A DNA stretch of 64,000 nucleotides from Cupriavidus respiraculi (lineage in GTDB: Bacteria; Pseudomonadota; Gammaproteobacteria; Burkholderiales; Burkholderiaceae), in assembly GCF_914271545.1 (NCBI RefSeq), contig NZ_CAJZAH010000003.1:575660-639659 (forward strand), written 5' to 3'. A program made the position numbers and the translations under genes. Below the pieces are notes generated by a model. That model had not been told where the DNA came from. It saw only the letters and a list, made by a program, of their open reading frames with translations, and ran no database searches. Of this stretch, positions 43,375-54,405 are shown piece by piece. How positions within the stretch are numbered: the stretch's first letter is position 1; every line of letters starts with the position of its first letter.

Positions 43375-43701
43375 GATTGAATCCTCCTCTGGTTGGCGGC
43401 AAGCCGTCATTCTTCGTGCCTTCGCTTGCCGGTATTGCCGTTGCTGACGCATGGGACCGCAGGGAGCGGTCTTGCGAACAGGCGTTCGATTCTAAGGACG
43501 CATTCAGCAGGTGGCCGTACATCCCGTCATGTCGCTGGTGAATCGCTTTCACGGATCAGGGTTAGCCCTGACGCGGCGGCCAGTGTGGAGGGTATACCAA
43601 TCACGCCCTCGCGCAAATGTATGCGAAACGCCCTCACGGGCGCAGTGGCTGGCACAATGACTCCTTGCGCCAAGGGGGGCGATGCCGAAACGGAGAACAT
43701 C
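43375..43701. other. Intergenic gap upstream of lldP and a LysE exporter
   Basis: This is 327 bp between divergent genes. It holds the GAGGAGG ribosome site of lldP and an 8-bp palindrome GGTATACC (43591-43598) that resembles GntR-family half-sites loosely. No promoter is firm and no small gene is seen. Confidence 0.4.
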
Positions 43702-44361
43702 ATGACCAGCGTATTGCCTGCCTGGCCGCTGCTGGCGGCCTTCCTCACCGCCAGCCTGGTGCTGGCGGTAACGCCGGGACCGGCCGTGGTGTATATCGTC
43801 ACGCAGACCCTCGGGCGAGGGCGCAAGGCCGGTCTCGCGTCGGTGGCGGGGGTGGCCCTTGGCAACTTCGGCAATGCGGCGGGCGCCGCCATCGGGCTCG
43901 CGGCGCTGTTCGCGGTGTCGTCGCTGGCGTTCTCGGTGGTCAAGTACGCGGGCGCGGCCTATCTGATCTATCTGGGCATCCGCGCCTGGCGGGCGCCGCA
44001 GGATATGGCGCAGGCGGGCGCCGCGCCGGGACGGCAAGGCGCGAAGCCGATCGGCACCATGTTCCGCGATGGTTTCGTGGTGGCGCTGCTGAACCCCAAG
44101 ACGGCGCTGTTCTTCGCGGCCTTCCTGCCGCAATTCATGAATCCGGCGGCCGATCCGATGGCGCAAAGCCTGTTGTTGGGGGCGATCTTCGTGCTGGTGG
44201 CGGCGGCGAGCGATGTCTGCTATGTGCTGACCGCCGCCGCGGTGCTGCCCCGGCTTGCCGGCTCGCGCAAGGCGGTCGCGGCCGGGCGCTATCTGACGGC
44301 CGGCGCCTTTATCGGGCTGGGCGTGTTTACCGCGATCTCGGGCGGGCGTCGCGCGGCCTGA
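43702..44361 (+). CDS. LysE/RhtB-family amino-acid exporter
   Basis: The product is 219 residues with about six helices. The family start is FLTASLVLAVTPGPAVVYIVTQTLGRGRKAG, and FRDGFVVALLNPKTALFFAAFLPQF is diagnostic. It probably exports neutral amino acids or homoserine lactone-like compounds. A second LysE-type protein is at 48.3 kb on the other strand. A 9-bp repeat block follows the stop. Confidence 0.92.
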   Translation: MTSVLPAWPLLAAFLTASLVLAVTPGPAVVYIVTQTLGRGRKAGLASVAGVALGNFGNAAGAAIGLAALFAVSSLAFSVVKYAGAAYLIYLGIRAWRAPQDMAQAGAAPGRQGAKPIGTMFRDGFVVALLNPKTALFFAAFLPQFMNPAADPMAQSLLLGAIFVLVAAASDVCYVLTAAAVLPRLAGSRKAVAAGRYLTAGAFIGLGVFTAISGGRRAA

Positions 44362-44366
44362 GCGGC

Positions 44367-44402
44367 TTCAGCCGCTTCAGCCGCTTCAGCCGCTTCAGCC
44401 GC
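44367..44402. repeat. Four tandem 9-bp repeats between convergent genes
   Basis: TTCAGCCGC is repeated four times exactly. With the preceding GCGGC the first copy forms a small hairpin. It separates the convergent LysE and GST genes. Confidence 0.85.
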
Positions 44403-44410
44403 CGGAGGCG

Positions 44411-45055
44411 TCAGCGCAGCGGCAGTTCCAGGATGCCCGCTGCCGCGGGCCGGGCGCGCATGGCGGCCAGCCAGCGCTCGAGGTGGGGACGCGGCGCGTG
44501 CTGAGCCGGCATGCCCATCCAGCGGTGCGCGGCGCAGGCCAGCGAGATATCGGCCATCGAGAAGCGGCCGTCGCAGATGAAATCGCGGCCCTCCAGCGCC
44601 CGGTCGAGCACGGCGGCCAGCGGTTCGGTCTTCTCGCACGAGCGCTTCACCACCGCGGCATCGCGCTCGGCCTCTGGCTTGCGCACCAGCTGGATGAAGG
44701 CGTCCACCATCGCAGGCGTAAAGGCCGTGGCCTGCCAGTCCATCCAGCGGTCCGCCGACGCGCGCGTCCTGACGTCGCCAGGCCACAGCGTGTCCTCGCC
44801 ATAGCGTGCGCACAGGTAGCGCACGATGGCATTGGACTCCCACAGCACGAAGGGCTCTCCGCCCACATCGGTGCCGCGAAAATCCTCGATCACCGGGATC
44901 AGCCGGTTCGGATTCAGCCGGATATAGGCCTCGGTGTCCAGGTCGCCCTTGTTGACGCCGATATCGATGCGCTCGTGATCCAGATGCAGCTCACGCGCGC
45001 ACCACACGACCTTCTGCACGTTGATGGAGGAAAGGCGGCCCCAGATGCGCAGCAT
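44411..45055 (-). CDS. Glutathione S-transferase family protein
   Basis: The product is 214 residues. The N-terminal thioredoxin-like domain (residues 1-80) has SSINVQKVVW in the catalytic loop and the conserved LIPVIED and WESNAIVRYL. The C-terminal helical domain follows. It conjugates or reduces electrophiles with glutathione. It is the last gene of the run transcribed leftward from 50.4 kb, 94 bp after the aminotransferase. Confidence 0.92.
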   Translation of the reverse strand: MLRIWGRLSSINVQKVVWCARELHLDHERIDIGVNKGDLDTEAYIRLNPNRLIPVIEDFRGTDVGGEPFVLWESNAIVRYLCARYGEDTLWPGDVRTRASADRWMDWQATAFTPAMVDAFIQLVRKPEAERDAAVVKRSCEKTEPLAAVLDRALEGRDFICDGRFSMADISLACAAHRWMGMPAQHAPRPHLERWLAAMRARPAAAGILELPLR

Positions 45056-45149
45056 GATGGACGTCTCCTTGCGATATCGGATCGTTGGGAAAAGCATGGC
45101 CGAAGCCCCGGCCGCAGGGAAAAGGGCGGGCCGCGAGGGGCCCGCCCGC

Positions 45150-46337
45150 TCAGGCGGCCTTCGCTCCCGGCGCGTGCGCCGCGATGGCTTCGCGGAACAG
45201 TTCGCCCAGGATCGCCACGCCCTGCTCGATGCGGTCCGGCGCGACCGTGACGAAGGCCAGACGCAGCGTATTGCGGCGCGGATTGCTGGCATAGAAGGGC
45301 GCGCCCGGCACGTAGGCCACGTTGCGCTTCACCGCCTGTTCCAGGATCGCCATGCTGTCCAGCCCCTCGGGCAGCTCCATCCAGATGAACATGCCGCCTT
45401 CCGGCCGGTTCCACGTGACGCCCGCCGGCATATGGCGCTGGAGCGAATCCAGCATGGCCTGGCACTGGCTGCCGTAGAGCTGGCGGATGGTCGGGATATG
45501 CGTGTCGAGCAGCCCGTCGCGGATGGTCTCGTAGGCCAGGCGCTGGGTAAAGCTGGGCGTGTGCAGGTCGCTGGCCTGCTTGGCCTGGCACAGCTTGAAA
45601 TGCAGCTCGGGTGGGGCGATCACGTAGCCCAGGCGCAGGCCCGGCGCCAGCACCTTGGAGAACGAGCCCATGTAGATCACGCCGTCCGGATTCATCGACA
45701 GCAGCGAGGGCAGCTGGTCGCCGGTGTAGCTGAGCTCGCCATAGGGATCGTCCTCGACCAGCAGCACGCCCAGCTCCTTCGCGCGCGCCACCAGGGCCTG
45801 GCGGCGCTCCAGCGGCATGCGGCGGCCGGTGGGGTTCTGGAAATTCGGCAGCGCGTACAGGAAGCGCGCGTTGGCCGTCAGCTCCGGCGTCAGCGCCTCG
45901 GGCAGCAGGCTCTTGTCGTCGCCCGGGACCGAGACGAACTCGGGCTCGAACAGCGAGAAGGCCTGCAGGGCGCCGAGGTAGCTCGGCGTCTCCACCAGCA
46001 CCGGGCTGCCCGGGTCGATCAGCACCTTGGCCAGCAGGTCCAGCGCCTGCTGCGAGCCGGTGGTGATCAGCACGCGCTCGACATCCACGTTGTGGCGGCG
46101 CGCCACGAACTCGCGCAGCGGCAGATAGCCTTCGGTGGCGGCGTACTGCATTGCGCCCTGCGGGTTGTCGGCGAATACGCGGGCTACCGCTTGCTCCATG
46201 GCCGCTACCGGGAAGGTGGCCGGCGAAGGCAGGCCGCCGGCGAAGGAAATGACCTCCGGCCGCTCGGTGACTTTCAGGATTTCGCGGATGGCCGAGCTGG
46301 TCAGCTGCTGTGCCCGGCGGGAGATTGCCCAATGCAT
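45150..46337 (-). CDS. PLP-dependent aminotransferase, class I/II (LysN/Aro8-like)
   Basis: The product is 395 residues. The PLP lysine is Lys228 (MGSFSKVLAPGLRLG), with NPTGRRM and EDDPYGELSY as cofactor-binding segments. It is close to the stand-alone aminotransferases related to 2-aminoadipate transaminase and to MocR C-domains. It has no DNA-binding domain. The ATG at 46337 is chosen; 26 upstream codons in frame look non-conserved. It lies 70 bp after the cupin gene. Confidence 0.92.
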   Translation of the reverse strand: MHWAISRRAQQLTSSAIREILKVTERPEVISFAGGLPSPATFPVAAMEQAVARVFADNPQGAMQYAATEGYLPLREFVARRHNVDVERVLITTGSQQALDLLAKVLIDPGSPVLVETPSYLGALQAFSLFEPEFVSVPGDDKSLLPEALTPELTANARFLYALPNFQNPTGRRMPLERRQALVARAKELGVLLVEDDPYGELSYTGDQLPSLLSMNPDGVIYMGSFSKVLAPGLRLGYVIAPPELHFKLCQAKQASDLHTPSFTQRLAYETIRDGLLDTHIPTIRQLYGSQCQAMLDSLQRHMPAGVTWNRPEGGMFIWMELPEGLDSMAILEQAVKRNVAYVPGAPFYASNPRRNTLRLAFVTVAPDRIEQGVAILGELFREAIAAHAPGAKAA

Positions 46338-46407
46338 GATGGTCTCTTTTTCAGGGGTGGGGCCCCCGGCGCGCGGCGCCGGGGTGTGATCGGTATTGTC
46401 GGTCTTG

Positions 46408-46737
46408 TCAGTCAACGATGAACAGGCGCGCGCCGGTCGGGGTGAAGGACCGGTGCGGCTCCGCCTGGTCGGCGACCTGGTAGCTCATGCCCGTCTTGAG
46501 CACGAAATGCCGGCCGTCTTCCAGTTCGGTGTGCAGCTCGCCCTGCAATACCAGCAGGATATGGCCCTTGGTACACCAGTGGTCCGCGAGGTAGCCGGCC
46601 GAATACTCGACCATGCGCACGCGCAGGGGGCCGAACTGGCGCGTGCGCCAGAGCGCCTCGCCGACTTCGCCCGGATGGCGGGTCGGCTCGATCTCGGACC
46701 AGTCGGTGGTGCCGAAGGGCAGGTTGTCGATTTGCAT
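46408..46737 (-). CDS. DHCW-motif cupin protein
   Basis: The product is 109 residues forming a single cupin barrel with the motif ADHWCTKGHIL. This is the conserved D-H-(C/W) cluster of a small uncharacterised cupin family. His and Cys there could bind a metal. The biochemical role is unknown. It sits between RidA- and aminotransferase-encoding genes in one direction, suggesting amino-acid-related use. Confidence 0.85.
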   Translation of the reverse strand: MQIDNLPFGTTDWSEIEPTRHPGEVGEALWRTRQFGPLRVRMVEYSAGYLADHWCTKGHILLVLQGELHTELEDGRHFVLKTGMSYQVADQAEPHRSFTPTGARLFIVD

Positions 46738-46765
46738 GAACGGCGCGCTCGCTCGTGGCGACGCG

Positions 46766-47221
46766 TTACTGCACTTCGACGATCATTTCGATCTCGACGC
46801 AGGCGCCCATCGGAATCTGCGCCACGCCGAATGCGCTGCGGGCGTGCTTGCCCTTGTCGCCGAAGATCTCGACCAGCAGTTCGGACGCGCCGTTGGTCAC
46901 CAGATGGTGCTCGGTGAATTCGAGGCTGGAGTTCACCAGGCTCATGACCTTGACGATGCGGGTCACGCGGTTCAGATCGCCGACGTGCCCGTGCAGCGTC
47001 GCCAGCAGGTCCACGGCGATGGCGCGCGCGGCGGTCTTGCCTTCCTCCGTGGTCATGGTCTGGCCGAGCTTGCCTACCCAGGGCTTGCCGTCCTTGCGGG
47101 CGATATGGCCCGACAGGAAGACCGTGTTGCCGGTCTGCGCGGCCATCACATAGGCGGCGGCGGGCGCGGAAGCGGTGGGCAACTCGATGCCGAGGCGGGC
47201 AAGCGTGTCGTAGACGGACAT
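46766..47221 (-). CDS. RidA/YjgF family protein lacking the deaminase arginine
   Basis: The product is 151 residues with the trimeric RidA fold. Archetypal RidA enzymes hydrolyse 2-aminoacrylate using an Arg in VARLP. Here that segment is VAQIP (Gln135), as in Rid subgroups that lack imine deaminase activity. It may therefore bind or act on another metabolite. It is in the same transcription unit as exporters and an aminotransferase. Confidence 0.9.
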   Translation of the reverse strand: MSVYDTLARLGIELPTASAPAAAYVMAAQTGNTVFLSGHIARKDGKPWVGKLGQTMTTEEGKTAARAIAVDLLATLHGHVGDLNRVTRIVKVMSLVNSSLEFTEHHLVTNGASELLVEIFGDKGKHARSAFGVAQIPMGACVEIEMIVEVQ

Positions 47222-47294
47222 GAACTCTCCTGTGGATGCGTTCGTCGGGGAACGGTGAGGTTAGGGGTTGAGGCGGCCGGCCATGCGGCGCGGC

Positions 47295-48272
47295 TCAGGA
47301 CGACCGTGCCGGCCGGGCAGGCCCGGTTTCCGGCGCGGTAACCGGCGCGGTAACCGGCGCCGCGCGCACCGCGGTGCGCCGGCCCAGCGCCACGACGGCG
47401 ATCACGGCCACCGCGAACGCCACGGTCGGCGCGTCCAGCGACTCGCCAAGCAGCAGCGCGCCGCCGGCCAGCGTCAGGAACGGTTGCAGCAATTGTATCT
47501 GCCCGACGCGGGCCACGCCGCCTTTTGCCAGCCCGGCGTACCAGAACAGGAAGCCGATGAACATGGAAAAGACGGAGACATAGGCCATGCCGAGCCAGGC
47601 CCGCGGCGACGCGGCGACGATGGCCGGCACGTGCTGCGCCGCCAGCCATGCCACCACGGGCGCCAGCACCGGCAGCGAAATGACCAGCGCCCAGCTGATG
47701 GTTTCGAGCCCGCCGAGCTCGCGCGCCAGCTTGCCGCCTTCGGCATAACCGAGGGCCCCCAGCACCATCGCGGCGAACAGCAGCCAGTCGGCGTGCTGCA
47801 GGCCGCCGGCGCCCTGCCACAGCGCGAAGCCGACCACCAGCGCGCTGCCGGCGAGTGCCGAGACCCAGAAGCCGGCCGAAGGCCGCTCGCGGCCGAACCA
47901 CGCGGCGAACACCGCGGTGGCCAGCGGCAGCAGTCCGATGACGATGGCGCCGTGGCTGGCCGGCACCTCCCGCATGGCCAGCGACGAAAACAGCGGAAAG
48001 CCCACCACCACGCCCACCGAGGTCACCGCCAGGCGCCACCATTGCGCGCCGCGCGGACGGCGCCCGGCGGCGAGCGCGCCGCGGTGCCACAGCAGCGCCA
48101 GCGCCAGCAGGGCGGCGACGATGGCGCGGGCGAGCGCGACGAAGATCGGGTCGAGCTCGGCCACCGCCATGCGCGTAAAGGGCAGGGTCTGGCTGAAGAT
48201 GGCCACGCCGATGAAGCCGAGCAGCATGCCGCCGGACTGCGGCGCCACGGGGGACAGGGAGGTACGCGTCAT
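47295..48272 (-). CDS. EamA (DMT) family transporter
   Basis: The product is 325 residues with ten predicted helices in two EamA repeats, the length of YdcZ/RhtA-like exporters. EamA transporters often export amino acids such as cysteine, O-acetylserine or threonine. The C-terminal tail (RAAPVTAPVTAPETGP) contains a duplicated six-residue-coding unit. It lies 11 bp after the LysE gene on the same strand. Confidence 0.9.
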   Translation of the reverse strand: MTRTSLSPVAPQSGGMLLGFIGVAIFSQTLPFTRMAVAELDPIFVALARAIVAALLALALLWHRGALAAGRRPRGAQWWRLAVTSVGVVVGFPLFSSLAMREVPASHGAIVIGLLPLATAVFAAWFGRERPSAGFWVSALAGSALVVGFALWQGAGGLQHADWLLFAAMVLGALGYAEGGKLARELGGLETISWALVISLPVLAPVVAWLAAQHVPAIVAASPRAWLGMAYVSVFSMFIGFLFWYAGLAKGGVARVGQIQLLQPFLTLAGGALLLGESLDAPTVAFAVAVIAVVALGRRTAVRAAPVTAPVTAPETGPARPARSS

Positions 48273-48283
48273 GGTCACTCGCC

Positions 48284-48922
48284 TTACGCCGCCGCCGGCC
48301 GTACGCCGACCGCGATCCAGAGCGCGGTCAGGCCCAGCGCCAGGCCCATCGCGCGATTGAACCAGCGGATGCGCTGGCCCACCTTGAGCCACTGCCGCAG
48401 CGAGGCCCCGATCAGTCCGTACACGCCGTTGCTGACGAAGCCGAACACCCCGAACACCACGCACACCAGCAGCGCGCGCTGCGCGGGCGATTCGGCGCCG
48501 GCCATGTACGAGGCGGCGGTCGCCAGCGCCAGCATCCACGCCTTGATATTGGCGTACTGCAGCGCGGCCGACTGCCATACGGTCAGCGGCTTGAGCACCT
48601 GCTTTTCCGCGAGTGTGGCGCTGCGCCCGATCTTGTACGCGAGCCACAGCAGGTAGGCCACGCCCACCACATGCAGCAGCGTGGCCAGCACCGGGCTGGC
48701 CAGCACCAGGGCGCCCACGCCGGCCGCGCACAGCACCAGGATGCTGGCAAAGCCCAGCGACACGCCGATGCAGTGGGGCAGCGTGGCGCGCAGCCCGAAG
48801 TTGGCGCCGGTGACGGCGGCGATGGTGGTGTTGGGGCCGGGCGTAAAGGAGCCGACCGTCATCAGGGTCAGCAATGCCACGAATTGCGCGGCGCTCAGGC
48901 CGGTAAGAAGGCTGGGGTCCAT
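48284..48922 (-). CDS. LysE/RhtB-family amino-acid exporter
   Basis: The product is 212 residues with about six helices and the family start LLTLMTVGSFTPGPNTTIAAVTGANFGLR. The substrate is unknown. The ATG at 48922 (MDPSLLTGLS) is favoured. It is 13 bp downstream of the AlaX gene and 11 bp upstream of the EamA gene, an arrangement that implies one message. This is a different branch from the LysE protein at 43.7 kb. Confidence 0.92.
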   Translation of the reverse strand: MDPSLLTGLSAAQFVALLTLMTVGSFTPGPNTTIAAVTGANFGLRATLPHCIGVSLGFASILVLCAAGVGALVLASPVLATLLHVVGVAYLLWLAYKIGRSATLAEKQVLKPLTVWQSAALQYANIKAWMLALATAASYMAGAESPAQRALLVCVVFGVFGFVSNGVYGLIGASLRQWLKVGQRIRWFNRAMGLALGLTALWIAVGVRPAAA

Positions 48923-48935
48923 GATCGGGGGCGCT

Positions 48936-49727
48936 TCAGGCGGGCAGGCCGGCGGCCGGCGCGAACCCGACGACGATGCGCCGGTTGGTGCGGCTCTTCT
49001 TCTCGATCTTGGTGACCACCACCGGTCCGATCTCCGCGACGCCGGCCACATGGGTGCCGCCGCACGGCTGGCGGTCCACGCCGGGGATCTCGATGATGCG
49101 GATGCTCTGCATGCCGGCGGGCGGCGCGGCGCCGATGGTGCGCACCAGGTCCGGCTGCTGCGCGAGCTGCTCGGGCGTGATGCGGTCGATGCGCACCGCG
49201 GTGCCGGCCGCGATCAGCGCGTTGAGCTGCCCGGTCAGCACCGTCTTGTCCAGCGTGGATTCCGGCAGGTCGAAGTCGATGCGGGCGGAGTCGGGCGAAA
49301 TGCCGCAGCCGGTAACCGGCACGGGGATCAGCGAGCCCAGCAGGTGCAGGCAGGTATGCAGCCGCATCAGCCGGTGGCGGCGCTCCCAGTCGATGGTCAC
49401 GGTCACGGTGTCGCCTGGGCGCGGCAGGTCCGCCGCGCTGTCCGCGGCGGCCGGGACGTGCAGGATATGGGTGCGGTCGGCCGAGTAGACAGTCTCGGCC
49501 AGCGGCACGGCGCGGCCGTGGGCCAGCGCCAGGGTGCCGGTGTCGCCGGCCTGGCCGCCGCTGCGCGCATAGCAGACGGTCTGGTCGAGCACGATGCCCT
49601 CGGGCAGCACGGCCAGCACGGTGGCCGTGCAGGTGCCCAGGTAGGCGTCGTCGTCGAAGCGCTTGCGGGTCGGCGGGAGGGCGGCGGGCATCGCCGGCGC
49701 CGTGGCCGGCTGGAATGCGGTCTGCAT
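48936..49727 (-). CDS. alaX: Alanyl-tRNA editing protein AlaX
   Basis: The product is 263 residues. The zinc ligands of the editing site are His124 and His128 (RLHTCLHLL) and Cys222 and His226 (PCGGTHVAG). The conserved TVCYARSGGQAGDTG also matches. AlaX hydrolyses Ser-tRNA-Ala or Gly-tRNA-Ala. Its presence next to amino-acid exporters and a MocR regulator suggests protection when a serine-like amino acid accumulates. GGAGAAAG precedes the ATG at 49727. Confidence 0.95.
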   Translation of the reverse strand: MQTAFQPATAPAMPAALPPTRKRFDDDAYLGTCTATVLAVLPEGIVLDQTVCYARSGGQAGDTGTLALAHGRAVPLAETVYSADRTHILHVPAAADSAADLPRPGDTVTVTIDWERRHRLMRLHTCLHLLGSLIPVPVTGCGISPDSARIDFDLPESTLDKTVLTGQLNALIAAGTAVRIDRITPEQLAQQPDLVRTIGAAPPAGMQSIRIIEIPGVDRQPCGGTHVAGVAEIGPVVVTKIEKKSRTNRRIVVGFAPAAGLPA

Positions 49728-49774
49728 GGGGCTTTCTCCGGGAATTGGTTCTTTTTGGTTTTGTTGTCTTGTGG

Positions 49775-50452
49775 TCAACGCAGGGTGCGGATGCCCTGCG
49801 GCGTTTCGATGTCGGCGCGCAGCGCCGGCACGTCGCCGGCCTCGACGTCGATCAAGCCGTCCGCGCCGAGCCACGCCAGCGCCTGGCCGATCTCCCCGGA
49901 CCGCGGATGCGTGGCGACCAGCCCGCGCAACGCCAGGTCCTGCTTCGGCAGCAGCGCGGACGGGTGCGTCGGCACATCCCACTGGATCAAGGTCGGCAGC
50001 ACGCCATCGCCCGCCAGCTCGGGATCGCAGGCCGGCCATCCGGGCAGGCTGCCGTCCGCCGGCACGGTGATGCGCCAGCGCAGATCGCCGCGCGTCATCG
50101 GGATGACCGGGGCGATCCGCTCCGGATACTGCCCCTGCCAGGCGGACAGGTCGGCCGGACGCTCCACGCGCGCGACCCAGTGCGCGAGAAAAGGCCCATG
50201 CGCCAGCCGGCGCTGCATTTCCCCGGCGTCCAGGCCGAACCAGCGCGGCCGCGCGGGTGCTTCGGCGTCCGGGTCGATGGCGATGACCTCCAGGTAGACG
50301 CCGCCGTAGAGTCCCAGCAGACGGTTGTGCGTGCCCATGGCGGTGTGCTTGCCGCCGCCGGCGGGCGTCACGCCGAGCGTGTCGGCGACATACTGGGCGC
50401 CGGCATCCAGCGTGGCGGCGGCGATCACGAGGTGGTCGAGGGCTAGTGGCAT
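49775..50452 (-). CDS. VOC-family protein (glyoxalase-like)
   Basis: The product is 225 residues. The start MPLALDHLVIAAATLDAGAQYV and HTAMGTHNRLLGL match the glyoxalase_3 branch of the vicinal oxygen chelate superfamily. His and Glu residues (DHLVI, YLEVIAID) may bind a metal. The substrate is unknown. It is the first gene of the leftward run and diverges from the MocR regulator, with 84 bp between starts. Confidence 0.88.
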   Translation of the reverse strand: MPLALDHLVIAAATLDAGAQYVADTLGVTPAGGGKHTAMGTHNRLLGLYGGVYLEVIAIDPDAEAPARPRWFGLDAGEMQRRLAHGPFLAHWVARVERPADLSAWQGQYPERIAPVIPMTRGDLRWRITVPADGSLPGWPACDPELAGDGVLPTLIQWDVPTHPSALLPKQDLALRGLVATHPRSGEIGQALAWLGADGLIDVEAGDVPALRADIETPQGIRTLR

Positions 50453-50481
50453 CGTGGCTCGATCTTAGACAAGGTTGGCGG

Positions 50482-50522
50482 TACAGTACCGATACAGTTA
50501 ATCTACTCGTATTCAGTACAGT
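50482..50522. promoter_or_regulatory. Three TACAGT direct repeats, candidate MocR operator
   Basis: TACAGT occurs at 50482-50487, 50493-50498 and 50517-50522, at start-to-start spacings of 11 and 24 bp. The site is in the 84 bp between the VOC and MocR starts. MocR/GabR proteins bind direct repeats, so autoregulation and control of the divergent operon are inferred. Confidence 0.6.
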
Positions 50523-50536
50523 TTCGGGAGCACGGC

Positions 50537-52114
50537 ATGGGTGGCAGGGAAGGCGTGGAAAGGGCGGGCCCGGACATGGCGGGCGTGCCCGCGGGAGCGT
50601 CGCCGCGCGCTGCGTCGCCGCGCGCGCCGGCCGCGCTGCGGATGGTCGGCTCCGGCATGCCGCCCGCCGGCAGCCTGCCCGACCCGGTGCCCTCGACCCA
50701 GATGACACTGGTGGGGCAGCTCACCGAATGGGCGCGCATGCGCATCGACGAACGCGTGTTCCGCGCCGGCATGCGCATGCCGTCCATCCGCCAGCTCGCG
50801 CAGGACAAGGGCATTTCGCGCTTTACCGTGGTCGAGGCCTACGAACGGCTCGTGGCGCTGGGGTATCTGGAGTCGCGGCGCGGCTCCGGCTTCTACGTGC
50901 GCGAGCAGCCGGGCCTTGCCGCGCAGGCGGGCGAGGGTGCATGGGGACAGACGGGCGGCAAGGGCCAGGGCGCCGAGGCCGTCGTGCCGCGCAACATCGA
51001 CGTCACCTGGCTGCTGCGCAGCATGTACCACACCGCGGAGCCGCACAAGGCGCCCGGGCTGGGCTTCCTGCCGAACACCTGGCTGGACGGCGAACTGATC
51101 TCCAGCGCCCTGCGCGGGCTGGGCCGCCAGCCCGGCAACCACTTTCTCGCCAGCGGCACGCCGCAGGGCTTCCTGCCGCTGCGCCAGCAGCTGCGCACGC
51201 GCCTGGCCGAGCTGGAGATCGGCGCCACGCCCGAGCAGATCCTGCTGACCTCGGGCATCACGCAGGCGCTGGACCTGGTCGCGCGGCTGTACGTGCGGCA
51301 GGGCGATACGGTGCTGGTCGGCGATCCCGCCTGGTTCGTGATGTTCGCGCGCTTCGCGGCGCAGGGGGCGCAGGTCATCGGCGTGCCCTATACCGCCGAA
51401 GGGCCGGACCTGGAGGCGTTGGAGCGCATCGTCCAGGCCCATCGGCCGCGCCTGCTGGTGCTCAATACCGTGCTGCACAACCCGACCGGCACCTCGCTGT
51501 CGGCCGCGCGCGCCTTCCAGGTGCTGCGGCTCGCCGAGCAGTACGACTTCCTGGTGGTCGAGGACGATATCTACTGCGATCTCAGCCCGCCGGGCCATCC
51601 GGCCACCCGGCTCGCGAGCCTGGACCAGCTGCGCCGGGTCATCTACATGGGCAGCTTTTCCAAGACGCTGGCCGCCAACCTGCGCGTGGGCTTCGTCGCC
51701 GCCAGCCCCGAACTGGTGTCGTCGCTGACCGACGCCAAGCTGCTGGCCGGCCTGAGCACGCCCGAGATCAACGAACGGGTGCTGTACAAGGTGTTGACCG
51801 AGGGCCACTACCGCAAGCATGTGGAACGGGTGCGCGGCCGGCTGGACCGCGCGCGCGACGAGACGCGCCGCGCGCTGGAGGACCTGGGCCTCGCGCTGTT
51901 CCCCGGCCAGCACGCCGGCATGTACCTGTGGGCCGATACCGGCCGCGATACCAACGCCATCGCCACCGCCGGGCACGAGGAGGGCTATCTGTTCGCGCCG
52001 GGCAGCCTGTTCTCGCCGTCGCAGCTGCCCTCGGGCTGGATGCGCTTCAACGTGGCTTGCAGCCAGGACCCGGCGATGCTGGACTTTCTCGCCCGCCAGC
52101 TCGACCGCCGGTGA
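50537..52114 (+). CDS. MocR-type regulator (GntR HTH fused to aminotransferase)
   Basis: The product is 525 residues. A 50-residue variable N-terminus precedes a GntR winged helix (about 55-125; FRAGMRMPSIRQLAQDKGIS then YLESRRGSGFYV). The rest is an aminotransferase-fold domain with PLP lysine Lys376 (GSFSKTLAANLRVGF). Members such as GabR and PdxR sense an amino acid or PLP as an external aldimine. It faces the VOC-AlaX-LysE-EamA run and likely controls it. Later ATGs (such as 50576) are possible starts. Confidence 0.93.
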   Translation: MGGREGVERAGPDMAGVPAGASPRAASPRAPAALRMVGSGMPPAGSLPDPVPSTQMTLVGQLTEWARMRIDERVFRAGMRMPSIRQLAQDKGISRFTVVEAYERLVALGYLESRRGSGFYVREQPGLAAQAGEGAWGQTGGKGQGAEAVVPRNIDVTWLLRSMYHTAEPHKAPGLGFLPNTWLDGELISSALRGLGRQPGNHFLASGTPQGFLPLRQQLRTRLAELEIGATPEQILLTSGITQALDLVARLYVRQGDTVLVGDPAWFVMFARFAAQGAQVIGVPYTAEGPDLEALERIVQAHRPRLLVLNTVLHNPTGTSLSAARAFQVLRLAEQYDFLVVEDDIYCDLSPPGHPATRLASLDQLRRVIYMGSFSKTLAANLRVGFVAASPELVSSLTDAKLLAGLSTPEINERVLYKVLTEGHYRKHVERVRGRLDRARDETRRALEDLGLALFPGQHAGMYLWADTGRDTNAIATAGHEEGYLFAPGSLFSPSQLPSGWMRFNVACSQDPAMLDFLARQLDRR

Positions 52115-52283
52115 GCGCCGGCTGGCCTGCGGGGGCGCCCCGCATCTTGAAAACCGGCCGCGGCGCCCCTATTTCGGCTCCCAACGGTAGGCCGCGCGAC
52201 GAGCGACGCCCGCGTACCCGTACCACCGGGCACCGGCCACCGGTCCAATACCAGTCTTTCCCGCTTTATCCACGAGGAGAACC

Positions 52284-54185
52284 ATGACCGCACCGCACGA
52301 GACGATGAGCTTCCAGGCGGAAGTGAAGCAGTTGCTGCACCTGATGATCCATTCGCTGTACAGCAACAAGGAAATCTTCCTGCGCGAATTGATCTCGAAC
52401 GCTTCCGACGCCACCGACAAGCTGCGCTTCGAGGCGATTGCCGATCCGGCCCTGCTCGAAAACGACGCCGACCTGGCCATCCGGCTGGAGCTGGATCCCA
52501 AGGCGCGCACGCTGAAGATCACCGACAACGGCATCGGCATGAGCCGCGACGAGGCGATACGCAACCTCGGCACCATCGCCCGCTCGGGCACCAAGGAATT
52601 CTTCCAGCAGCTCTCCGGCGACCAGCAGAAGGATGCGGCGCTGATCGGCCAGTTCGGCGTGGGCTTCTACTCGGCGTTCATCGTGGCCGACCGCGTCACG
52701 GTGGAGACCCGCCGCGCGGGCCTGCCGGCGAGCGAGGCGGTGCGCTGGGAAAGCACCGGCGACGGCGAGTTCTCGGTCGACGCCATCGAGCGCGCCGAAC
52801 GCGGCACCACCATCACGCTGCACCTGCGCGAGGGCGAGGACGATTTCCTGTCGGCGTGGAAGGTCAAGTCCATCATCCAGAAGTACTCGGACCATATCTC
52901 GCTGCCGATCCGCATGCCCAAGGAAGTGTGGGACGCCGAGGCGAGCGCGTACAAGAGCACCGGCGAGTGGGAAAGCGTCAATCAGGCCAGCGCGCTGTGG
53001 ACCCGCTCCAAGACCGATATCACCGACGAGCAGTACACCGCGTTCTACCAGCACATCGCCCACGACAACGAGGCGCCGCTGGCCTGGACCCACAACCGCG
53101 TGGAAGGCCGCAGCGAATACACGCAGCTGCTCTATATCCCGGCGCGCGCGCCGTTCGACCTGTGGGACCGCAATCACCGCGGCGGCCTGAAGCTGTATGT
53201 GAAGCGCGTCTTCATCATGGACGACGCCGAACAACTGCTGCCGAACTACCTGCGCTTCGTCAAGGGCGTGATCGACTCGGCCGACCTGCCGCTGAACGTG
53301 TCCCGCGAACTGCTGCAGGAAAGCCGCGACGTAAAGGCGATCCGCGAGGGCAGCACCAAGCGCGCCCTGTCGATGCTCGAAGCGCTGGCCGAGAGCGACG
53401 ACGAAGCGCAGCGCGCCAAGTACGCGACGTTCTGGCAGCAGTTCGGCCAGGTGCTCAAGGAAGGCATGGGCGAGGACACTGCCAACCAGGAGCGCATCGC
53501 CAAGCTGCTGCGCTTCGCCTCCACGCACAACGACACCGCCGAGCAGAACGTATCGCTCGACGACTACGTGGGCCGCATGAAGGAGGGGCAGGACAAGATC
53601 TACTACGTCACGGCCGATACCTGGACCGCCGCGAAGTCGAGCCCGCATCTGGAGGTCTTCCGCAAGAAGGGCATCGAGGTGCTGCTGCTGACCGACCGCG
53701 TGGACGAATGGATGCTGTCGTTCGCGCACGAGTTCGACGGCAAGGAACTGGTGTCGGTGGCGCGCGGCGGCCTGGACCTGGGTACGCTGGCCGATGCCGA
53801 GGAAAAGGCCGAGCAGGAGAAGGCCGAAACCGAATGGAAGGACGTGGTGTCCCGCGCCAAGGACGTGCTCAAGGACAAGGCCAAGGATGTCCGCATCACG
53901 CTGCGCCTGACCGACTCCGCCTCCTGCCTGGTGTCCGACGAAGGCGAGATGAGCGGCTACCTGCTTCGCATGCTCAAGCAGGCCGGGCAGAAGGCGCCCG
54001 AGGTCCATCCGATCCTGGAGCTGAACCCGGAGCACGCGCTGGTGCGCAAGCTGCGCGACGTGGCCGACGACGCGTCGTTCGAGGACCGCGTGCGCATCCT
54101 GTTCGACCAGGCGCTGCTGGCCGAGGGCGGCATGCTGGAGGACCCGGCGGCCTACGTGCAGCGGATCAACCGGCTGCTGGCCTGA
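52284..54185 (+). CDS. htpG: Molecular chaperone HtpG (Hsp90)
   Basis: The product is 633 residues. N-terminal ATPase motifs are [33 protein letters not shown] and [11 protein letters not shown]. The middle domain and the C-terminal dimerisation region ([16 protein letters not shown]) are complete. A strong ribosome site (GAGGAGA) lies before the ATG. It assists folding under heat stress. A repeat array follows the stop. Confidence 0.98.
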
Positions 54186-54234: not shown

Positions 54235-54405
54235 CCCTCACCCCGGCCCTCTCCCGCCCGCGGGAGAGGGAGCAAACCCCGGGTGTTCCCGCCCGCGGGA
54301 GAGGCAGCAAACCCCGGGGTGTTCCCGCCCGCGGGAAAGGGAGCAAACCGCGGGTGTTCTCCCCTCTCCCGCCCGCGGGAGAGGGGCGGGGGTGAGGGTG
54401 AACGG
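54235..54405. repeat. REP-like palindromic array after htpG
   Basis: Four copies of a palindrome of about 22 bp (CTCCCGCCCGCGGGAG core) are separated by short GCAAACC...GTGTTC linkers. The outer copies are flanked by complementary CCTCACCCC / GGGGTGAGG tails, so the whole block can fold. A related copy lies at about 63183-63210. This is a REP/BIME-type element. No other feature lies between htpG and the glycosylase gene (54186-54488). Confidence 0.9.

Follow-up and report, generated by a model that had tools for sequence, protein, structure and literature searches.

A MocR-faced run of eight genes in Cupriavidus respiraculi, its relatives in the Burkholderiales and a possible link to serine-type amino acids

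Results

A MocR-type regulator opposite an eight-gene run

The window analysed here is a 64-kb stretch (64,000 nucleotides) from contig 3 of the 5.59-Mb genome of Cupriavidus respiraculi. It contains a gene for a MocR-type regulator that faces a run of eight minus-strand genes with predicted functions in amino acid export, tRNA editing and the handling of reactive metabolites, with three direct TACAGT boxes in the space between. We describe this locus, its relatives in the Burkholderiales and a possible role in the handling of serine-type amino acids. L-numbers denote the related loci compared, G-numbers genomes and f-numbers families of Burkholderiales. The features, in window coordinates, are as follows (PLP, pyridoxal 5'-phosphate).

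50537..52114, plus strand: MocR-type regulator (Pfam GntR 6.1e-14, Aminotran_1_2 2e-34; PLP lysine K376)
50482..50522: putative operator, three direct TACAGT boxes at 50482, 50493 and 50517
50482-50498: tandem TACAGT-N5-TACAGT within the putative operator
49775..50452, minus strand: VOC / Glyoxalase_3 protein, first gene of the run (PF13468 1e-39)
48936..49727, minus strand: AlaX-M-like stand-alone alanyl-tRNA editing protein (AlaXM 1.4e-52; tRNA_SAD; zinc motifs HTCLH and CGGTH)
48284..48922, minus strand: LysE-family exporter (closest NCBIfam model EamB, cysteine/O-acetylserine, below cut-off)
47295..48272, minus strand: EamA/DMT-family exporter (PF00892 9.9e-30)
46766..47221, minus strand: Rid1-like imine deaminase of the YjgF/Rid family (Arg128 aligns with the Arg of PA0814)
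46408..46737, minus strand: DHCW-motif cupin (NF038084 178.9 bits, cut-off 70)
45150..46337, minus strand: PLP aminotransferase, Aminotran_1_2, class I/II (nearest solved relative 2egy, 3.5e-110)
45124..45147, minus strand: terminator-like hairpin and TTTT, directly 3' of the aminotransferase stop
44411..45055, minus strand: glutathione S-transferase (GST), GST family, last gene of the run (coupling uncertain in C. respiraculi)

All eight minus-strand genes start with ATG, and the gaps between them, from VOC to GST, are 47, 13, 11, 73, 28, 70 and 94 bp. An initial annotation of this DNA had given the same order opposite MocR and the same seven gaps, and both were reproduced when coordinates were re-derived and gaps recomputed; the three TACAGT repeats that it placed between MocR and VOC were found at the positions listed, and Pfam and NCBIfam scans agreed with its family names.

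The regulator shows the features of the MocR subfamily, namely a GntR DNA-binding domain fused to a fold-type I aminotransferase domain with a PLP lysine, and repeated operator boxes near a divergent promoter. Lys376 was present in all 58 MocR rows that cover the position (59 aligned), and the protein is likely to sense amino acids by way of vitamin B6. The best-scoring model for the protein was that of PdxR (NF052282), at 254.4 bits and thus under the 320-bit cut-off. In a tree of 45 MocR proteins, the window's MocR fell into a 30-row clade (support 100/100) together with the MocRs of other Burkholderiales clusters; the four other MocRs of its own genome and those of L137, L138 and L140 lay outside. 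Small DUF2917 proteins adjoin MocR in L126, L127 and L128 (Pfam) and in the own-genome locus L144 (by eye).

A tandem of TACAGT boxes is shared within one MocR clade

TACAGT occurs four times in the window, a count reached in 49 of 100 shuffles, so its frequency, being at chance level, was dropped as an argument for an operator and conservation was used in its place. Three of the four copies fall inside 41 bp, none lies inside the eight-gene run, and the tandem TACAGT-N5-TACAGT has no second copy elsewhere in the window at zero or one mismatch. Every Cupriavidus-type row, 30 in all (the window plus 29 loci), has the three boxes, spaced 24 and 11 bp apart. The Ralstonia-type rows (10/10) have boxes 1 and 3 exact and 35 bp apart, with one mismatch in the middle box, and none of the three boxes was found at L063, L064 and L075, which have an unrelated MocR.

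When the tandem was sought further afield, it was present with zero to two mismatches out of 12 in all 22 regions of the first test (the window and 21 loci, from f1, f8, f10, f4 and f49), and at most 4 of 300 shuffles did as well in any one region. Two clade members tested later had one mismatch (L139) and three (L133). In all, 23 of the 24 regions tested in this MocR clade, from five Burkholderiales families, have the tandem at two or fewer mismatches. Next to MocR genes outside the clade (L137, L138 and L140) the best match had three or four mismatches, equalled by 19 to 107 of 300 shuffles, and next to the four other MocR genes of the window's genome it had three to five. With this distribution, the TACAGT boxes look like a real operator. 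Control by MocR, as proposed in the initial annotation, is supported by the operator in 23 of 24 clade regions and by the co-inheritance of MocR with the cluster.

A wider regulon in the same genome was not borne out, since two pattern scans gave one perfect tandem site. The sole one-mismatch site in the genome lies directly before a phage-integrase gene. Sites reaching two mismatches numbered 28 in all vs 87 for the reversed pattern and were set aside as background as a class. One of them was kept as a candidate: TACAGTACCTGTACACA at C1:1210224 (L142:8225-8241, contig 1 of the same genome) closely matches the f8-type operators. It forms part of a larger inverted repeat and is followed, after 41 bp, by the ATG of a 120-residue protein that has no Pfam match, with a small helix-turn-helix gene nearby; it may be a second target or the site of another regulator. 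The simplest reading is that MocR is a local regulator with the eight-gene run as its main target.

The cluster recurs with variable gene content

We compared 39 related loci in which MocR is more than 70% identical to that of the window; these were fetched via AlaX, so that AlaX is present by construction, and three of them (L004, L018 and L046) stop at contig edges. EamA was present in all 39, Rid in 38, the aminotransferase and GST in 36 each, LysE in 29, VOC in 26 and the cupin in 13; the last three are thus optional even within Cupriavidus and Ralstonia. A MocR search independent of AlaX gave matches at 1e-60 in 66 of 300 genomes of the order, paralogues included. Apart from the window's own locus, the 29 top-scoring loci were viewed with 1.5-kb flanks, and long stretches were taken for 20 of them, the nine omitted being lower-scoring loci without a partner gene in those flanks. 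At 15 of the 29 loci (15 of the 20 fetched), the divergent side of MocR carries two or more of the genes for LysE, EamA, Rid and the aminotransferase; when loci are ranked by MocR score, these 15 all fall within the top 16. L139 has just a LysE and L133 just a Rid, 7 kb off; none of the four partner genes was found on the divergent side in the long stretches of L137, L138 and L140.

Gene content at these loci varies, from VOC-EamA-aminotransferase-Rid-PhzF (L122) and dehydratase-LysE-EamA-Rid-aminotransferase (L125) to LysE-EamA-Rid-aminotransferase (L127 and L128) and EamA-LysE (L134-L136). The recurring members are an EamB-like LysE, EamA, a Rid1-like imine deaminase and a LysN-like aminotransferase; AlaX, VOC, GST, cupin, PhzF and a threonine/serine dehydratase are variable ones. 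A MocR-faced cluster thus recurs in several Burkholderiales families; the initial annotation had named a gene order confined to close relatives as a ground for refutation, and this ground did not apply. The eight genes as a fixed set did not hold up, given the optional cupin, VOC and LysE and an AlaX that was not found in the other fetched Burkholderiales clusters. The Achromobacter loci, which keep VOC-AlaX and in which MocR and the remaining cluster genes were not found, likewise count against an obligate eight-gene unit and show that VOC and AlaX can move together as a pair. In the Achromobacter locus L033, VOC-AlaX stands between a secF-like gene and, one gene further, a miaB-like gene (names by eye).

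The gene htpG adjoins MocR in all 39 related loci and also at the f1, f10 and some f8 loci, and part of the conservation could reflect a frozen neighbourhood. General synteny was rejected as the explanation: the f49, f4 and four of six f8 stretches keep cluster genes, and no htpG was found in them. Downstream of htpG, at 54240-54390 of the window, repeated G+C-rich units were seen by eye.

Dehydratase and cysteine synthase genes are linked to cluster members

The additional gene of L125 encodes a PRK06110 threonine/serine dehydratase (538 bits vs a cut-off of 317). At 1e-100 this dehydratase was found in 38 of 398 genomes of the phylum, and 20 of the 38 loci were fetched; the f49 genomes were selected because they carry the dehydratase, which makes its presence there, unlike that of the other genes, a matter of construction. 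MocR was found in the same stretch as the dehydratase at 10 of the 20 loci. In all seven f49 loci it faces LysE-EamA-aminotransferase-PhzF-dehydratase, with GST after the aminotransferase in four and VOC before the dehydratase in six, and at L257, L258 and L265 it faces the dehydratase directly. Outside this group, a MocR faces the dehydratase and AlaX in Roseospira and Roseospirillum (PhzF too in L064), dehydratase-AlaX-PhzF in G562 (L195) and AlaX-LysE in G588 (L211). The MocRs of Roseospira, Roseospirillum and G562 belong to a different deep branch of the tree, so that similar parts seem to have come together on more than one occasion.

The window's AlaX, whose closest relatives among named genomes are from Cupriavidus, has the HxxxH and CxxxH motifs and the conserved Thr expected of a trans-editing protein. 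Among 121 aligned rows the zinc ligands were kept in 121 (H124), 121 (H128), 120 (C222) and 119 (H226), and residue 50 was Thr in 113, Ser in 6 and Ala in 2. Two positions past this Thr of the editing motif, residue 52 was Cys in place of Phe in 52 of the 121 rows, all of them Cupriavidus-type or Achromobacter; the Ralstonia-type and remaining rows have Phe or no Cys. Cys52 might indicate a changed substrate.

AlaX relatives were found at 1e-40 in 65 of 398 genomes, and 40 of these loci were fetched (L177-L216). A cysteine synthase gene, called by similarity to the L186 enzyme (over the NCBIfam cut-off) or to that of L189 (cysteine synthase-like, below cut-off), lies upstream of AlaX on the same strand within 4 kb at 31 of these 40 proteobacterial loci, and within 76 bp at 11; it was not found at the other nine, which include L195 and L211. 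At L192 and L193 the gene between the two best fits the serine O-acetyltransferase model, below its cut-off, and at many other AlaX loci the two are separated by the gene of a large membrane protein (read by eye in two cases). Of the compounds suggested in the initial annotation, serine-like ones are favoured by the PRK06110 dehydratase in clusters of the same MocR clade and by this separate linkage of AlaX to cysteine synthase and, at two loci, to the serine acetyltransferase-like gene; a serine-type (beta-substituted alanine) amino acid would be the common substrate.

Exporters, imine deaminase and aminotransferase

EamA and EamB of Escherichia coli export O-acetylserine and cysteine. Both carrier families are present in the cluster, and EamB was the best model for LysE in all eight proteins scanned (the window and seven loci), always below its cut-off; three of the ten candidates (L127, L130 and L253) had been omitted, their frame start being unclear. 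The cluster differs from the E. coli pair in that its EamB match falls below the equivalog cut-off, and the substrate of its carriers is putative. The Rid protein is nearest to the uncharacterised 3d01 (9.9e-30), followed by PA0814 (2.9e-22) and ACIAD3089 (4e-17), and has an E-value of 0.0067 with the enamine/imine deaminase 8v8r. Its catalytic Arg, R128, was kept in 49 of 49 rows; with its nearest named relatives being Rid1 proteins and the active-site Arg kept, it can be called Rid1-like. PA0814 and ACIAD3089 are Rid1 proteins that likewise conserve the Arg, and Rid1 proteins deaminate 2-aminoacrylate in vitro (PMC5619798). RidA genes are described as clustering with threonine dehydratase, the in vivo substrates of Rid1-3 being not known in 2015 (PMC4433059). 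For the aminotransferase, the closest solved structure is 2egy, an alpha-aminoadipate aminotransferase of the LysN type.

Transcript signals

A stem of 9 bp, G+C, followed by TTTT, lies at 45147-45124, just past the aminotransferase stop. The region holds three terminator-like sites, equal to the shuffle mean of 3.0, so that the weight of this hairpin comes from its position alone; a stricter script found no terminator-like stem in 36 relatives. With this hairpin between them, GST may be uncoupled from the run in C. respiraculi. A single transcript from the operator to GST would suit the short gaps and the lack of TACAGT within the run; the hairpin and the outcome of the promoter scan described below are caveats to it. 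Its membership is supported by its position after the aminotransferase in the four f49 clusters that carry it. Gaps in the relatives are short, with medians of -4 to 47 bp as estimated from tblastn ends, except between Rid and the aminotransferase where no cupin intervenes (median 115 bp). Beyond GST, and convergent to it, a second LysE-family gene (43702-44358, plus strand), homoserine/threonine exporter-like, is present in the window and in 14 of the 39 related loci; between the two genes lies a short tandem repeat (44362-44402, by eye) with a unit of approximately AGCCGCTTC in about four copies.

Discussion

The sequence comparison shows a single clade of MocR proteins, a conserved tandem operator and a divergent gene run that recurs with modular content. 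We infer that the amino acid concerned is of the serine type, and we propose a MocR regulon for alanines with a beta-OH, beta-SH or beta-O-acyl group, a proposal whose chances we regard as evenly balanced. The coordinated defence proposed in the initial annotation is supported in part: its regulatory side is strengthened, and its functional side is narrowed to serine-type amino acids. Candidate ligands would be serine, threonine, cysteine, O-acetylserine and close analogues. Such an amino acid would form an external aldimine with the PLP of MocR and thereby alter its grip on the head-to-tail boxes, and the run would be switched on; as to the mode of MocR action, a repressor is suggested by PMC8567248 and an activator by PMC8067088. 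The EamB-like LysE and EamA carriers would expel the amino acid, and its removal would fall to the LysN-like aminotransferase or, among relatives, to the PRK06110 dehydratase. The Rid1-like protein would hydrolyse imines that PLP enzymes release, 2-aminoacrylate among them, and AlaX would clear serine or an analogue misloaded on tRNA-Ala; VOC, GST and the cupin would be accessory and may handle electrophilic by-products. In Bacillus subtilis, excess serine is toxic and is relieved by more serine deaminase and in part by threonine dehydratase, toxic degradation products being only a minor factor according to the authors (PMC8226366).

Several observations weigh against this proposal. L133 belongs to the MocR clade, and its operator has three mismatches and no cluster beside it. 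AlaX was not found in the fetched Burkholderiales clusters outside Cupriavidus and Ralstonia, Rid was not found in the f49 clusters, and the 1e-100 search found no PRK06110 dehydratase in the window's genome or in the congeners G158 and G604; the serine theme is thus pieced together across genomes. By tblastn, MocR was not found at 10 of the 20 dehydratase loci, four of which have LysE nearby, and the loci that link AlaX to cysteine synthase represent few families and do not count as independent cases. Two assignments stay below their equivalog cut-offs: EamB (NF007653) for the window's LysE, at 79.3 bits vs 193, and AlaXM (NF040865), at 178.8 bits vs 300. LysN-like aminotransferases are broad and give no pointer to serine, and no role is assigned to the cupin, VOC or PhzF. 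A sigma-70 consensus scan of 43400-52400 returned no promoter-like sites, with 0.7 expected by shuffling. The fullest form of the proposal, a single ligand-sensing MocR circuit in which export, removal and imine quenching are joined by an AlaX with a lineage-specific Phe-to-Cys change that repairs mischarged tRNA-Ala, all against one amino acid, we hold to be rather unlikely.

The run might instead defend against a foreign non-proteinogenic amino acid from plants or competitors, such as vinylglycine, beta-methylamino-L-alanine (BMAA), diaminopropionate or cycloserine-like and cyanoalanine-like compounds, and not against the cell's own serine or cysteine. An antimetabolite suits the pairing of two exporters with imine quenching and tRNA editing, and the Cys52 of Cupriavidus and Achromobacter AlaX might mean a changed substrate. 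In Pseudomonas fluorescens WH6 the MocR protein GvgR controls a cluster with three LysE genes, and at least one of two LysE is required for export and survival (PMC8067088). That system resembles ours in its MocR, its LysE exporters, its aminotransferase and the involvement of a toxic amino acid, proposed in our case, and differs in being biosynthetic, since it makes formylaminooxyvinylglycine; its gene table lists no AlaX, Rid or EamA. CtdA, a stand-alone tRNA editor that adjoins a canavanine degradation operon (PMC10018355), similarly stands beside genes for the removal of the amino acid in question; it differs in its B3/B4 fold and in acting on tRNA-Arg, and the part of its description used here does not mention a regulator. 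The broad conservation in Burkholderiales and the linkage of AlaX to serine/cysteine biosynthesis genes fit an internal metabolite better, and a foreign target seems unlikely to us.

Two further explanations were weighed. In a PLP-homeostasis regulon of the PdxQ kind, MocR would sense PLP itself, and the exporters, aminotransferase, VOC and PhzF would serve vitamin B6 metabolism. PdxR is indeed the best-scoring model for MocR, and the PdxQ regulons hold DMT, LysE, aminotransferase, GloA lyase and PhzF genes (PMC5320631), of which DMT/LysE carriers and a PLP aminotransferase recur here as putative targets. The score lies under the PdxR cut-off, however, and no pdx gene was found among the window's eight genes, to which that scan was directed. 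We also know of no role for AlaX, Rid or the dehydratase in PLP supply, and judge this explanation quite unlikely. Ordinary catabolism or overflow, with transamination and export during growth on an amino acid, editing and imine deamination as housekeeping riders and no defence at all, would agree with the carriers and the aminotransferase being the most widely recurring members and with the view of the PMC8067088 authors that MocR activators are generally linked to catabolic pathways. The eight genes include no importer and no enzyme for downstream oxidation, two exporters speak against nutrient use, and the probability that we attach to it is similarly small.

As for novelty, the initial annotation had known of no described system with this set. 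That claim is weakened by overlap with published MocR regulon predictions. The comparative study of Suvorova and Rodionov (2016; PMC5320631) predicted MocR regulons and suggested a response to damage of PLP enzymes; its PdxQ group and its groups with RidA or threonine dehydratase resemble our cluster in combining MocR and direct-repeat operators with DMT, LysE, PLP aminotransferase, GloA-type lyase, PhzF, RidA and threonine dehydratase targets. The PdxQ regulons differ in being described with pdxO, pdxO2 or pdxH, none of which is among the window's eight genes. The main text of that study contains neither 'AlaX' nor any word starting with 'alanyl' or 'glutathione'. The parts are individually known; no description or test of the present gene combination was recognised in the open-licence literature, and the supplementary tables of PMC5320631 may list the regulog.

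If the fullest form of the proposal holds, the regulon would be, to our knowledge, the first known to co-induce tRNA trans-editing and disposal of the same serine-type amino acid via a PLP-aldimine sensor. Betaproteobacteria have the most MocR proteins per genome of the groups surveyed, 7.44 (PMC5320631), and few of them have a known ligand; the cluster is compact and conserved and can be put to the test, its operator being precisely defined and its candidate ligands few. Induction of translation proofreading together with amino acid disposal would join quality control of the genetic code to a metabolic stress response, and in the fullest form of the proposal Rid1 proteins would gain a physiological role.

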